27,124 bases of DNA, from the IMG/VR virus record IMGVR_UViG_3300034283_003008, positions 1-27,124 of that record. One strand, 5' to 3'. The translations under genes were made by a program, and so were the position numbers. Under the pieces are notes generated by a model. The model saw only the letters and a program-made list of their open reading frames with translations, did not search any database and was not told the origin of the DNA. This document shows, one piece after another, positions 15,779-27,060 of this stretch (its first letter is position 1; the number at the start of each line of letters is the position of its first letter). This DNA comes from a virus.

Positions 15779-17304
15779 CAAAACACCTCTAATCCCTGGA
15801 GCTCGTAGATACTCTCACCATTTACCCCGGTTGCCTCGGCGGTTCGGGCCCGTGCGAAGGCCATAATCGAGGAAACAGCGGCGTCAATTCGCTCAACGGA
15901 GCGCTTTTTCGAGGGCTTTTGGTTGCCAGCGGCGTCGAATTCGATCACAACATTGTCAATACACCACCTCAAAAGCGGATTTCCATCGTGTGAAATCTGC
16001 TTTTGCAGGACCGCCGCCTCAAAATCCTTGGTTGGCGGGCTCATCGAGCGGAATCCCTGGCGGAATTCGCGGACGATGTAGCCCTGATTTTCGAGTTTTT
16101 GCATCAGAAATTCGGCGTTCCAGGGATCTACGGCGATCTCCCGGATCTTGTATTCCTCGGAAATCTCGGCGATGCGGCGCAAAACCACCTCGTAGTCGAT
16201 GATTTCGCCCGGGATAATCTCCAGATTTCCGCTGCGAGCAAACTGGTCGTAGCGCATCCGGTTGGTGTCGTTGCGTTTGGCGACCATGGCCGAGGTCGTC
16301 CACGCAAAAGATTTCAGGTGGATCGCTCCGGCCAAGGGGAAAGCCAGGGTGAAAGAGGTCAGGTCGGTGCGGGAGGAGAGGTCAAGCGCCGCGTAACAGG
16401 GGACCTCCTCCAGGTTGGTCGGGTGCGCTTCGCAGGAGTTCCAGGCCTCGGTGGCGATCCAGCGGGCGGCGGATTCGACCCATTGGTTCAAATGGTATTG
16501 GCGGAAGGATTGCTCGCGGGCGGGATTATTTTGCGCGGTTTGGCAGGTGTCCTTGAGGTACTCCAGGGTCACGGATTTTCCGAGTCCAGGATTCGCCGCT
16601 TTCCACGCTTCGGGGCTTTTCCAATCCATCTCCCGGGGAGCTTCGTAGATGACGGGCAAAAAGGTCGGATCGTTCACGACGCCGTCGCGGACCTGAATTC
16701 CGTAGGAATACAACTCTGCAAGCAGCGTTCCCCGATCGTGACCACTCGTCGATATCATGAATGCCAAGGGCTCGGTGCGTGCGCCCATTGAGGTCACAAG
16801 CGCTTCGTACAGGTCCCTATTTTTTTGTGTCAGCAATTCGTCGAAGATCAGCGTGGAAATGTTGTGGCCGAGGTTGCCAGCGGCATCCGCGGCGATCACC
16901 TTATACACAGCGCCACGGTTCGCCTCGATGTGACGGCGGTAGACCTTGCACTTTTTGGAAAGCTCCGGAGAGTGAAGGACCATCTGCTTCGCGATGTCGA
17001 AGGCCAGCGCTGCCTGATCGGAGTCGCACGCGGCGGAGAGAATTTCCGCCCCCGGTTCGTGGTCGGCGAAAAGCATGTACAGGGCAAGCGCCGAGGCCAA
17101 AGTGGTCTTGCCGTTTTTGCGACCGAGCATGACCAGCGCCTGGCGGTATTGGCGGCGGCCATCCTTGAGGCGGGTGTCGAGCAGCGGGCGAATGATGTCG
17201 CGCATTTGCCAGCGATCAAGCACCAGCGGCTGGCCACCAAGTGGGCCCTTGGTGTGGGAGAGAAGCGAGCGACAAAAGAGCTCGAAGACAGCGGACGGTT
17301 TCAT
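15778..17304 (-). CDS. terL: terminase large subunit (TerL, HK97 type)
   Basis: The protein has 508 residues. ATPase: Walker A at GRKNGKTT (61-68) and Walker B at TLIFDELL (151-158, Glu156). Nuclease: first Asp in YAALDLSSRTDL (Asp308), next acidic residue in AVDPWNAEFL (Asp393), and a C-terminal ERIDAAVS motif. It translocates DNA into the prohead and cuts the concatemer. Its start codon lies inside a 9-bp hairpin. The gene follows the small terminase by 85 bp and overlaps the portal gene as TGATG. The family usually makes cos ends, but no cos site was found. Confidence 0.95.
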   Translation of the reverse strand: MKPSAVFELFCRSLLSHTKGPLGGQPLVLDRWQMRDIIRPLLDTRLKDGRRQYRQALVMLGRKNGKTTLASALALYMLFADHEPGAEILSAACDSDQAALAFDIAKQMVLHSPELSKKCKVYRRHIEANRGAVYKVIAADAAGNLGHNISTLIFDELLTQKNRDLYEALVTSMGARTEPLAFMISTSGHDRGTLLAELYSYGIQVRDGVVNDPTFLPVIYEAPREMDWKSPEAWKAANPGLGKSVTLEYLKDTCQTAQNNPAREQSFRQYHLNQWVESAARWIATEAWNSCEAHPTNLEEVPCYAALDLSSRTDLTSFTLAFPLAGAIHLKSFAWTTSAMVAKRNDTNRMRYDQFARSGNLEIIPGEIIDYEVVLRRIAEISEEYKIREIAVDPWNAEFLMQKLENQGYIVREFRQGFRSMSPPTKDFEAAVLQKQISHDGNPLLRWCIDNVVIEFDAAGNQKPSKKRSVERIDAAVSSIMAFARARTAEATGVNGESIYELQGLEVF

Positions 17305-24196: not shown

Positions 24197-24562
24197 TTAA
24201 AATGGCAAGCCATCATCCTGGCCGATTGCGGCGTCTGGCTCGGGATCCTGAATCGCCCTGGGCCAATAGTCTGCCTTGGGTGCGGGTGCGGTTTCTTCCT
24301 GTTCCTTGCCAAAGTTCACGACGGACCGGTCCACCCAAAAACCGTCTTTTCCATCGGGAAGCTTCCTGCCATCGACAAACCCCAAAAGACACCTTTTGCG
24401 GATTTCCCCGGATTCCCGATCGACAAACTCGGAATCCCGCAGCAACAGATAAACACCCAGTTTCCCGGCTTTGCTGCGATATTCCACATGCAGCTTCCCA
24501 TCCTTGTTGGTTGTTCCTAAAAGGATCTTTGGCGGATCCACCTTTTGCCAATTGCCACTCAT
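24197..24562 (-). CDS. putative single-strand DNA-binding protein with SSB-type C-terminal tip
   Basis: The start at 24562 follows AAGGAG by eight bases and forms an ATGA overlap with the recombination gene. The 121-residue protein has a beta-rich core (13-80) in which five strands can be counted, and a Pro/Ala linker. Its last residues are QDDGLPF, matching the acidic-then-Pro-Phe tip by which bacterial SSB recruits partner proteins. I see no standard SSB OB-fold signature, so a divergent OB fold is likely. It lies between a recombination gene and its paralogue. Confidence 0.68.
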   Translation of the reverse strand: MSGNWQKVDPPKILLGTTNKDGKLHVEYRSKAGKLGVYLLLRDSEFVDRESGEIRKRCLLGFVDGRKLPDGKDGFWVDRSVVNFGKEQEETAPAPKADYWPRAIQDPEPDAAIGQDDGLPF

Positions 24563-25230
24563 CGTGCGAGCTCCTTTTCCTTGTCTATTGCTTGCAACCA
24601 CATAATCACCTCGCGGGCCTTCGCGGCGCTAAGCTGCCTTGATGGCCCAAACTTCCTCTCAAGATCTTCCCCGGTCGTGCCGGTCGTCTCCATCAGCCCG
24701 GCGATTTTCTCCCAGTCCTCCTTGCTGGGCCCCGCCTGGATACTTCGCACGGGCGGCGGCGGTGGCTGGTCGTGCGGTTCGGCGTCCATTTCCTCCACCG
24801 GAGTCGTGCTAAGGTTTGGATCCTTGAGCAAAACGACCAGATGCGAAAACGCCACCCGACAGGCCCGACTGGTCGCCCTGGTCTGGGCCATCGCCCGACG
24901 CGCAAACAAAGGCCGCTTGCGCCACATCACTTCGTCCTCGCCAACAAATCCCTCCGCCGAGGACAGCACCGTTCCGTCCGTTTGACGCTTGACCTCGGCA
25001 ATTGCGCGCACGCCCCCCTCAACCGATTCGACCGATGAGATGGAGACGGTGCACCCCGAAACCGCGGCCAATGCTTGCCACCCCTCGACCCGGATGTGAT
25101 CCCGGCCCCCGATGTTCTGGGCGGTTTGCCGAATGATCTCCCGGCACGATTCCGCCCTCGACTCATACAGGCGCATCAGTTCCCTGGGCGACTGCCCCGC
25201 CTGCCCAACTTCCATAATCTCCGTACTCAT
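24559..25230 (-). CDS. probable phage recombination protein (RAMA-QTRATSRA motif)
   Basis: The start at 25230 is set by AGGAG nine bases upstream; a longer frame to 25479 only translates the repeat array. The 223-residue protein has a helical start (RELMRLYESRAESCREIIRQ), then DHIRVEGWQALAAVSGC and strands, and MWRKRPLFARRAMAQTRATSRACR (102-125). The last part is the TRA[IT]xRA[LC] helix typical of phage annealing proteins (Erf/RecT-like families). A proline linker (155-160) and a C-terminal helix pair follow. It is coupled to an SSB-like gene, as recombinases often are. The family is not proved. Confidence 0.6.
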   Translation of the reverse strand: MSTEIMEVGQAGQSPRELMRLYESRAESCREIIRQTAQNIGGRDHIRVEGWQALAAVSGCTVSISSVESVEGGVRAIAEVKRQTDGTVLSSAEGFVGEDEVMWRKRPLFARRAMAQTRATSRACRVAFSHLVVLLKDPNLSTTPVEEMDAEPHDQPPPPPVRSIQAGPSKEDWEKIAGLMETTGTTGEDLERKFGPSRQLSAAKAREVIMWLQAIDKEKELAR

Positions 25231-25264
25231 ATGCCAAAACTCCTGTTTAGAAACAAAAAAAACA
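25231..25264 (-). promoter_or_regulatory. T8 run between array 1 and the recombination gene
   Basis: On the minus strand, after the last GGC units, comes GTGTTTTTTTTG (T8 at 25255-25262), 24 bp before the next start. If the preceding GC-rich array folds, this would act as a terminator or attenuator site. No single clean stem was found. Confidence 0.35.
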
Positions 25265-25520
25265 CCCAGCCTGCCCTGCCACGCCCTGCCTCGCCACGCC
25301 TGGCCCCGCCGCACCGAGCCGAGCCATGCCTGCCAAACCTTGCCTGGCCATGCAAAACCCCGTCCTTCCTCGCCACGCCCTGCACCGCCTGCCAAGTAAA
25401 GCCCTGCCGAACCACGCCCAGCCGAGCCATGCCAAGTTCTGCCTGGCCTTGCCCCGCCTGCCAAACCCTGCCCAGCCACGCCTGGCCCCGCCCGGCCTGG
25501 CCATGCCTTGCTATGCCTGC
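25265..25520 (-). repeat. GGCNN pentanucleotide array 1
   Basis: About 250 bp consist of back-to-back five-base units NNGCC (plus strand), i.e. GGCNN on the transcribed strand, with occasional four- or nine-base slips. It begins right at the stop codon of the winged-helix gene and ends before a T8 run. Two 11-bp islands, CCTGCCAAACC, occur at 25329-25339 and 25457-25467, with a variant at 25388. It is not a CRISPR (no 25-45-bp repeat) and not coding: all frames on either strand give only Ala/Gly/Arg or Pro/Cys strings. Confidence 0.85.
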
Positions 25521-26018
25521 CTATTCAGCAGGTCGAAGACCTTTTTTAATTGCGTCTTCCACCCGGGACATACGACGCTCAAAACTTTTTTGCTGGGAGA
25601 CAATGGCGCTCATCACCATGAGTTGACCTTGGTGGGCGTTGCGCTGGTTTTCGTCCATCTCCTCCCACCTGACATTTTGCAGGACGGCCAACCCTTTGGA
25701 GAGTTGCCGATCCGCTTTGCGCTTGCGGTCGTTGGCGACCATCGTATGCTCGCTGGCCTGAGCCACCTTGTAGCCGACTCCACGCACGCTAACCAGGGCT
25801 CGCTGCGTCTCCCTGGAAAGCCGAAAGGTTGCCCGGGAGGTGGCTGCGCGAATGCCATCAAGATCCCAAGGCCGTTCGGACCCTTCGGCCAAAACGGTTG
25901 TCAGTTCGTCAAAGGTAAAAATCTTTCCTGGGTCGGCGTTGCGCACCAGATCAATAATCACCTGAGAGTCGGACCTGCCACAGGCTCTTGTGTTGCGAAA
26001 GCGATTTTGGCGTATCAA
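25521..26018 (-). CDS. winged-helix DNA-binding protein
   Basis: The protein has 165 residues and starts at TTG (26018) in a TTGA overlap with the RAMP-like gene, with AAAGG ten bases upstream. Residues 15-90 form a helix set ending in LSRETQRALVSVRGVGYKVA, in which the RGVGYKV turn is the wing of OmpR-type winged-helix domains. Residues 95-160 are a charged helical region with a coiled-coil look (RRMSRVEDAIKK). It probably regulates early transcription or binds the origin. Its stop codon is followed immediately by repeat array 1. Confidence 0.72.
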   Translation of the reverse strand: MIRQNRFRNTRACGRSDSQVIIDLVRNADPGKIFTFDELTTVLAEGSERPWDLDGIRAATSRATFRLSRETQRALVSVRGVGYKVAQASEHTMVANDRKRKADRQLSKGLAVLQNVRWEEMDENQRNAHQGQLMVMSAIVSQQKSFERRMSRVEDAIKKGLRPAE

Positions 26019-26590
26019 AGTTGCACTACCTTTCCTGTAAAGCGGCCATAGCCGTTGATTCGATTATCCCCAATCCCTTCGACCTGACCGGCGAGTTCCA
26101 CGACTCGCACCAGTTCGTCAAAGTTCAAACCCGCATCCTCAACAAACAAGCCATCGATTTGCATGGCCCATGGGGAAAACGAAGGGCGGACCCGCATGAC
26201 CCGTTTTCCATTGACTCCGACCGAGAGCCGGGAGACAAAGTTGCCAGACTTCCAAATTTCGTCAATGTTTTTTGGCCCCTGGTAAACCAGCGGAACATAG
26301 ACATCGGAAAAACTGATGGCCCGCTCGACGGCCTTGCCGAGCTTGCTGATTCGGGCCGTGTTGACAATACATTTTCTTGCTTTGGCGGTCGGTTGAACGA
26401 TCACGCCATCGCTTTGATACAGCCCGCCATACCATTCCAGTCGGGCAATATTTTTCAGATCCTCATCGGTCTTTTTCCGTTTCGAAGTCAGGGCTTTGAT
26501 CTCCCTATTGATTTCGAATTCCGGATCCACCATTTGTGGATTGTGCATAAGAAGTGGACTTGAGCCTTGCAATGTAATCCTGATATTCAT
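26015..26590 (-). CDS. RAMP-like protein with glycine-rich loop
   Basis: The start at 26590 has AGGGGAAACC upstream; the frame up to 26881 only translates array 2 and the tRNA-like element. The 191-residue protein begins MNIRITLQGSSPLLMHNPQM, a beta1-turn pattern like RAMP proteins (TPLLMHN-type), has a middle with VQPTAKARKCIVNTAR, and ends in GIGDNRINGYGRFTG (172-186). The G-x-G-x5-G-x-G spacing is that of the glycine-rich loop of Cas6/Cas7-type RAMPs. Phage proteins of this sort sit near recombination genes. RNA binding is a reasonable inference, and no CRISPR locus is present. Confidence 0.6.
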   Translation of the reverse strand: MNIRITLQGSSPLLMHNPQMVDPEFEINREIKALTSKRKKTDEDLKNIARLEWYGGLYQSDGVIVQPTAKARKCIVNTARISKLGKAVERAISFSDVYVPLVYQGPKNIDEIWKSGNFVSRLSVGVNGKRVMRVRPSFSPWAMQIDGLFVEDAGLNFDELVRVVELAGQVEGIGDNRINGYGRFTGKVVQL

Positions 26591-26610
26591 GGTTTCCCCT
26601 GTTCTGCTTG

Positions 26611-26631
26611 AAAAACTCCCCAAATTGGGGA
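26611..26631 (-). terminator. short terminator after the tRNA-like element
   Basis: On the minus strand TCCCC (26631-26627) pairs with GGGGA (26621-26617) around AATTT and is followed by G and five T (26611-26615). The stem is short (5 bp) but lies 2 bp behind the tRNA-like element and 21 bp before the next gene, so it could end a small RNA. Confidence 0.5.
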
Positions 26632-26633
26632 TC

Positions 26634-26679
26634 TGATAAGCCGGGATTCGAACCCGGTACGCCCCATCTGGCCTTATCA
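26634..26679 (-). ncRNA. 46-nt tRNA-like element (acceptor and T arm only)
   Basis: On the minus strand TGATAAG (26679-26673) pairs perfectly with CTTATCA (26640-26634), and between them CCGGG-TTCGAAT-CCCGG (26657-26641) is a perfect T arm with consensus T-loop. Only 15 nt (26672-26658) replace the D arm, anticodon arm and variable loop. It lacks an encoded CCA and has discriminator G. It is joined to array 2 upstream and to a short terminator downstream. It could be a tRNA remnant, an attachment-site remnant, an RNase P/Z-processed 3' end, or a tRNA-mimic small RNA. Confidence 0.65.
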
Positions 26680-26856
26680 CCCTGCCTTGCCGTGCCGCGC
26701 CCGGCCTTGCCACGCCTCGCCTGCCGTGCCATGCCGAGCCACGCCTTGCCAGGCTAAACCGAGCCGCACCTGCCAAACCCCGCCTTGCCCGACCACGCCG
26801 CGCCTGGCCAGGCCCGACCACGCCCGGCCTCGCCCAGCCGTGCCTGCCAAACCACA
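26680..26856 (-). repeat. GGCNN pentanucleotide array 2
   Basis: About 170 bp of NNGCC units (GGCNN on the minus strand) with the same four- and nine-base slips as array 1 and the same 11-bp islands CCTGCCAAACC at 26769-26779 and 26843-26853. It begins four bases after the csrA stop codon and ends at the tRNA-like element. As with array 1, it starts directly after a gene's stop and ends just before the next gene's leader. Confidence 0.85.
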
Positions 26857-27060
26857 TCACCCGATCTCGACCCGGCCCCAAACCGTTTCGACGGGCCCCT
26901 CGTCCAATGCCGAGGCGCTCAATTCCTCCCGCAAAATCGGGACATCCTTGGGCGCTTGGATTCCGACCCGGACTTTCCCGTTAAGGACTTCCTCGATGCT
27001 GATCCAGATATTTTCGCCAATTTGGATCCGCTGTCCTACCTTCCTTGATAACACAAGCAT
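26857..27060 (-). CDS. csrA: CsrA-type carbon storage regulator
   Basis: The protein has 67 residues. MLVLSRKVGQRIQIG is the universal CsrA start, followed by NGKVRVGIQAPKDVPILREEL, the beta4-beta5 and RNA-binding segment (Arg44-type position in VPILREE). CsrA is a dimeric RNA-binding protein that binds GGA motifs near ribosome sites and alters translation and stability. Phage-borne copies are known and probably redirect host mRNA or phage genes. AGGAAT precedes the start. It follows the upstream stop by 1 bp (TAAGATG) and is followed by array 2. Confidence 0.95.
   Translation of the reverse strand: MLVLSRKVGQRIQIGENIWISIEEVLNGKVRVGIQAPKDVPILREELSASALDEGPVETVWGRVEIG

Follow-up and report, generated by a model that had tools for sequence, protein, structure and literature searches.

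Degenerate five-base arrays in an uncultivated viral lineage as very probable guide RNA arrays of a VIPR system

What are two arrays of five-base units doing in the spacers of a single block of viral genes? The window analyzed here is a complete IMG/VR record (a linear fragment of 27,124 bases), and all the genes of the region that holds the arrays (24559-27060) are on the minus strand. In the direction of the transcript, csrA comes first, followed by array 2 and by a tRNA-like element together with a terminator-like hairpin; then come gene A, gene B, array 1 and gene C. A preliminary description of the sequence had concluded that no known function fits. However, the guide RNAs of VIPR systems match in detail, and it is very likely that both arrays code for the guides (vrRNAs) of such a system, carried by a phage. 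VIPR has been described (PMC13142463, a 2026 preprint) as the combination of a RAMP protein encoded by phages and guide RNAs that consist of GGY/NN repeats, 9-16 per vrRNA, and read DNA with a skip of one nucleotide. The same source presents it as a CRISPR-related weapon that phages carry against rival phages, and as a relative of CRISPR, similar to an ancestor, whose guide code is gapped. This kind of system is already known; in the form found here, the guides are chained and one of the two arrays has a tRNA-like tail.

Anatomy and turnover of the arrays

The two arrays are clearly real. In-phase GCC reaches 12 per 100-bp window in both of them, with typical values of 0-3 elsewhere in the sequence, and the autocorrelation has its maxima (0.54-0.59) at lags 5, 10 and 15, adjacent lags being mostly at 0.2-0.4. 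By unit chaining, array 1 (25271-25525, minus strand) has a core of 38 GGC units at 25271-25517, and array 2 (26682-26853, minus strand) one of 27 GGC units at 26682-26844. Both read GGC on the minus strand, i.e., the coding strand of the surrounding gene block. As already noted in the preliminary description, they begin at stop codons: in transcript direction, array 1 starts within that of the gene preceding it (AATAGGCAGG), and array 2 immediately past that of csrA. This csrA-like gene (26857-27060, minus strand; Pfam CsrA, E 1.8e-19) is the upstream neighbor of array 2. A phage-borne csrA immediately upstream of a guide array is an observation in itself, and csrA is also present on the records of two other loci (L121 and L262).

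The five-base GGC periodicity had been recognized from the beginning, but the unit needs rewording, since on the coding strand it is GGY-NN (Y being mostly C, with GGT also used) accompanied by a regular four-nucleotide unit, GGCA. The latter shifts the frame of the array, which explains what had been taken for slips. Across the clade, the four-nucleotide units are GGCA in 70 of 72 cases, the tracts between them have mostly 8-14 repeats, and the second N of the pair is close to uniform. The GGY rule is broken by several units of the segment called S3 below. An island shared by both arrays, GGTTTGGCAGG, was correctly reported to have four copies there (minus strand, at 25329, 25457, 26769 and 26843); a fifth lies outside them, at 16537 on the plus strand, and 0.04 copies are expected. 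In the arrays it coincides with GGTTT-GGCA-GG, the predicted boundary between guides, found between S3 and S4 at 25329-25339 (minus strand) and again at 25457-25467, 26769-26779 and 26843-26853. The GGCA units would thus mark off about seven guides, each with 8-14 repeats. In array 1, these are S1 (25463-25517, 11 units), S2 (25394-25458, 13 units), S3 (25335-25389, 11 units) and S4 (25276-25330, 11 units); in array 2, S5 (26775-26844, 14 units), S6 (26726-26770, 9 units) and S7 (26682-26721, 8 units), all on the minus strand. Their lengths and their hypervariable NN agree with the published 9-16 repeats, S6 and S7 being at or below the lower limit. Much longer degenerate GGY-NN arrays were seen in two other phage contigs, with 221 units in one of 158 kb (L087, 1965-3536) and 175 units in one of 18 kb (L053, 7605-8918).

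The comparison with close relatives indicates how these arrays change. Gene A is 98% identical between the window and L257, and the flanks of the arrays are nearly identical, while the NN letters and the length of the arrays have been rewritten, with GGY and the positions kept. L256 presents the same rewriting of NN between near-identical flanks, and its array contains internal block duplications. This is a code-like variation. The suggestion of a maintained element, for which absence from the same spacers in relatives had been named as the refuting observation, stands, as these spacers are occupied in the close relatives while the NN letters differ. A role as recombination substrate had also been proposed; it is not needed as an explanation, although the arrays do turn over by changes of whole blocks.

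Neighboring genes and their linkage to the arrays

Gene A (26015-26590, minus strand), the vipr gene, codes for a protein of 191 amino acids that belongs to phrog_4652 and is a RAMP with a single RRM domain and a Cas7/Csm3 fold. It is homologous to the Vipr of Escherichia phage SUSP1 (ALH47069, assigned from locus position and homology), with 35% identity across its length (E 1e-34) and an hhalign E-value of 2.6e-63. Its AlphaFold2 model has a pLDDT of 95.3, and the best 50 PDB entries retrieved with it were all Cas7-family RAMPs, mainly Csm3 (Z up to 10.9; Foldseek E 4.6e-6). Gene B (25521-26018, minus strand) is an accessory of the vap1 type, a member of phrog_5926, with 25% identity over 83 amino acids to the Vap1 of SUSP1 (ALH47068). 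Its model (pLDDT 87) combines a winged helix with long C-terminal helices and resembles OmpR-type DNA-binding domains in the PDB, at weak E-values, as would suit a vap accessory involved in DNA interaction. The two PHROG families, common to the window and SUSP1, are annotated as of unknown function. Pfam and PADLOC gave no family for either protein, nor any Cas or defense family among the neighboring proteins scanned with them.

The connection between arrays and RAMP gene goes well beyond this locus. IMG/VR was scanned, blind to proteins, using seven GCC-NN units as the pattern, and 84 viral loci with degenerate arrays were picked by the array pattern only. A search with an HMM, whose training set included at least one of these loci (L127), detected a homologue of gene A in 71 of the 84, at 7-767 bp from the array and, in 69 of the 71, on its strand (statements on array and gene strand rest on this HMM search). 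None was detected in 113 genome loci that have the pattern without degenerate arrays. The matches in genome contigs were mostly low-diversity repeats, many of them from GC-rich Actinomycetota. No homologue was detected beside the degenerate arrays of L016, L020, L039, L051, L052, L075, L089, L090, L091, L108, L110, L120 and L133. Several of the loci without it sit at the ends of the sequence stretch examined, and the remaining ones may have divergent Vipr types. Two contigs binned as cellular, L161 (a Fibrobacteres MAG) and L173 (a Patescibacteria MAG), also have a gene A homologue with a degenerate array, and we take them to be prophages or misbinned phages.

These data bear on other ways of reading the arrays. 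The arrays might be a structured RNA or attenuator, acting through the fold of the transcript and not as guides; their folding energies are strongly negative, as follows from the high G+C content and the GGC periodicity, a run of U closes array 1, and a terminator-like hairpin follows array 2. The preliminary description had also named transcript structure and proposed a shuffling check. When only the NN letters were shuffled, the folding energy remained unchanged (z of +0.58 and +0.54, about +0.55), so the order of NN gives no special structure. The nearly random second N and the fast turnover of NN leave no conserved fold, making this explanation very improbable. More improbable still is that the arrays bind a TRAP-like ring protein that reads GGC at the five-base period, with no recognition of a target. 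TRAP binds triplets at a spacing of about 5 nucleotides, similar to the one here, and there is a dedicated neighbor protein. However, this neighbor is a RAMP, and the NN letters match the gene of a relative under the published code (see below). We give practically no credence to nonfunctional drift of a tandem repeat, i.e., a microsatellite growing by slippage. Block duplications within arrays, e.g., in L256, would agree with it, but slippage predicts uniform NN and most viral arrays have at least 10 different dinucleotides, while the bacterial matches to the pattern are mostly low-diversity repeats without a RAMP gene. The conservation of array position, strand and neighbor gene, together with the linkage to the RAMP gene, also speaks against drift. 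We thus retain the VIPR guide arrays as the explanation; another early suggestion, a protein-RNA scaffold, had come close to it.

Guide targets and the tRNA-like tail

Guides were decoded by the published VIPR rule, joining the NN pairs and skipping one base per step. Decoded S4 (AT TC TC GC GG CA GT GA AG GT AG) matches the L257 homologue of gene C (phrog_19042; 24559-25230, minus strand, in the window) at 20 of 22 bases, the first 18 exactly, and the coordinates place the skipped base at the wobble positions of codons. With a core of nine units and up to three mismatches, L257 was the sole match among 16 relative records. In a search of 68 clade guides against 17 contigs under four skip rules, this pair ranked first with a score of 18; the runner-up scored 14, shuffled guides at most 16, and none of 3,000 random guides reached 18 on the L257 contig. 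The match is significant because the set searched consists of relatives; across the entire viral collection, 20 of 22 would be nothing unusual. In the window itself, the copy of this site (24788-24813, plus strand) has five guide-read mismatches in the nine-unit core; over the 26 nucleotides, own gene C and L257 differ at six positions, five of them read by the guide. S4 thus seems to target the closest relative found, a sister phage, through its gene C homologue as the predicted target, and the mismatch of the own copy would be an apparent case, a single one, of self-avoidance.

The convincing target is that of S4, for one guide of the seven. Over all the loci, one-skip matches with a score of at least 16 numbered 17, against 5 with shuffled and 10 with reversed guides, a small excess. 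S2 gave 20 matches, and those inspected include 5'-3' exonuclease genes, at the [DE]TQEIKLW motif and in antisense wobble frame; its best match (23 of 26) is suggestive and, by an estimate from hit counts, not significant alone. Decoded S2 (25394-25458) resembles the antisense of the motif [DE]TQEIKLWxP of these phage enzymes. S3 has one match of 21 of 22 in a protease/capsid gene, outside the wobble frame, which we consider suggestive, with roughly 0.07 expected by chance according to our estimate. The database matches of S1, S5 and S6 were judged to be due to chance, as they had no extension and fell in unrelated genes.

Judging by sequence and covariation, array 2 appears to end in a tRNA-like tail made of an acceptor and a T-arm, followed by a terminator-like hairpin. 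The tail (26634-26679, minus strand) comes directly after the array and reads TGATAAG-GCCAGATGGGGCGTA-CCGGG-TTCGAAT-CCCGG-CTTATCA (26679-26634), i.e., an acceptor of 7 bp (TGATAAG/CTTATCA), a T-stem of 5 bp and the loop TTCGAAT, with neither D nor anticodon arm. Directly after it lies the hairpin (26611-26631, minus strand), TCCCCAATTTGGGGA plus GTTTTT; terminator-like sites of this kind are no more numerous in the region than expected by chance. L256 and L257 have both elements with hardly any change. In a strand-specific scan, 13 tail elements lay in the sense of vipr, 11 of them right after GGY tracts, versus 1 and 0 in antisense, a contrast that is not a product of how the search was built. 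Such tails are known in nine loci including the window, several of them divergent VIPR loci: in L036, L121 and L272, vipr is preceded by several alternations of repeat tract and tail, and others are in L308, L019 and L262. In the nine tails, 95.8% of the cells pair, a value partly by construction because the search required most pairs, with two-sided changes in 10 of 12 pairs and a covariation of 0.86 against 0.21 in shuffles. A covariance model built without the window's clade recovered its own training loci and further tails in L036, and gave no tail in 100 genome loci. This model, for which the tails used were GC-rich, matches the window's tail weakly and partially (18.4 bits). Rfam had no match at the gathering threshold; the best one for the window's tail was mascRNA-menRNA (RF01684; 21.2 bits, cutoff 42.5), which was also the sole match at the L308 tail (28.4 bits, same cutoff). 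ARAGORN reported no complete tRNA, no encoded CCA was obvious in the tails inspected, and no structured tail was found after array 1. For the conserved, structured 3' tail typical of VIPR guides, array 2 offers a candidate, which is conserved and covarying. The main text of PMC13142463 does not mention tRNA.

The element after array 2 could alternatively be an attachment site or the remnant of a tRNA, outside the guide RNA. Phage integration at the 3' ends of tRNAs is frequent, and the left end of the record has the 3' end of a tRNA. On the other hand, the minihelix is complete (7+5 bp) with no other tRNA parts, recurs in L036, L121 and L272 behind one array after another, and has elsewhere different sequences with the same architecture, directly after GGY tracts in 11 of 13 cases. 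We consider this alternative unlikely and prefer the reading as a tail of the guide RNA. As for the left end itself (1-60 of the window, minus strand), it holds a tRNA gene, possibly tRNA-Arg(CCT), of which the 3' part is present (GGTTTCCTAAACC...GTAGGTTCGAATCCTAC) and which is cut by the end of the record; a possible interpretation is that of an integration site.

Proposed mechanism and comparison with known systems

Transcription of the arrays would run along the minus strand, and the transcripts would be processed into guides at the GGCA boundaries. Each guide would be coated by Vipr (26015-26590), with GGY held by the protein subunits and the NN pairs free to read double-stranded DNA, skipping one base per step. 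Once bound, the guides would shut down genes of rival phages, with repression as the presumed outcome, and the winged-helix Vap protein may assist in it. The tail may cap the guide or aid its release, possibly through RNase P. Tentatively, and with somewhat more doubt than trust, a broader picture can be drawn in which a tRNA-like minihelix of acceptor and T-arm closes the VIPR guide RNAs of several phage lineages and recruits host RNase P or RNase Z for cutting or capping, GGCA separates chained guides, and sister phages target each other, their own copy being mismatched. If true, this would be a route of guide RNA biogenesis that borrows tRNA processing. The tails, if confirmed, would link the processing of VIPR guides to tRNA maturation and provide a simple handle for finding arrays. 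VIPR was reached here independently, starting from an oddity in raw sequence, which puts the rules published for it to the test. In an uncultivated phage lineage whose relationship to SUSP1 is only distant, the arrays are again linked to the protein and follow the GGY/NN rule, and one guide obeys the one-nucleotide skip. A concrete case of apparent conflict between sister phages is that of S4, which matches the closest relative found and is mismatched to the window's own copy.

For the tail, the closest counterpart is mascRNA-menRNA, the tRNA-like 3' element of the eukaryotic MALAT1 and MEN beta RNAs, which likewise closes a noncoding RNA at its 3' end with an acceptor and T-arm but no complete tRNA body; with bit scores well under the gathering cutoff, the likeness is one of analogy and not of membership. 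As to the whole system, the type II VIPR of SUSP1, as described in PMC13142463, has the same order (array-vipr-vap-array), homologous Vipr (RAMP, 35% identity) and Vap1 proteins, GGY/NN units, guides of 8-14 repeats, and the one-nucleotide skip with wobble placement that we found for the one supported target. The differences are in the unit, mostly GGC in the window and GGT in SUSP1; in the guides, chained by GGCA in the window and each with its own tail in SUSP1; and in the tail, a tRNA-like minihelix on array 2 of the window and one with a predicted pseudoknot in SUSP1. The "staggered arrays with overlapping vrRNAs" of the same preprint (fig. S18) possibly have the same chained architecture. 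The constant repeats and unique spacers of CRISPR, which with cas genes characterize Class 1 CRISPR-Cas, were not seen at the arrays, which consist of degenerate five-base units, and there was no Cas protein among the neighbors scanned. What the window does share with the Class 1 effectors Csm3/Cas7 is the RAMP fold and the RNA-guided backbone, but with a single RRM domain and a gapped guide code.
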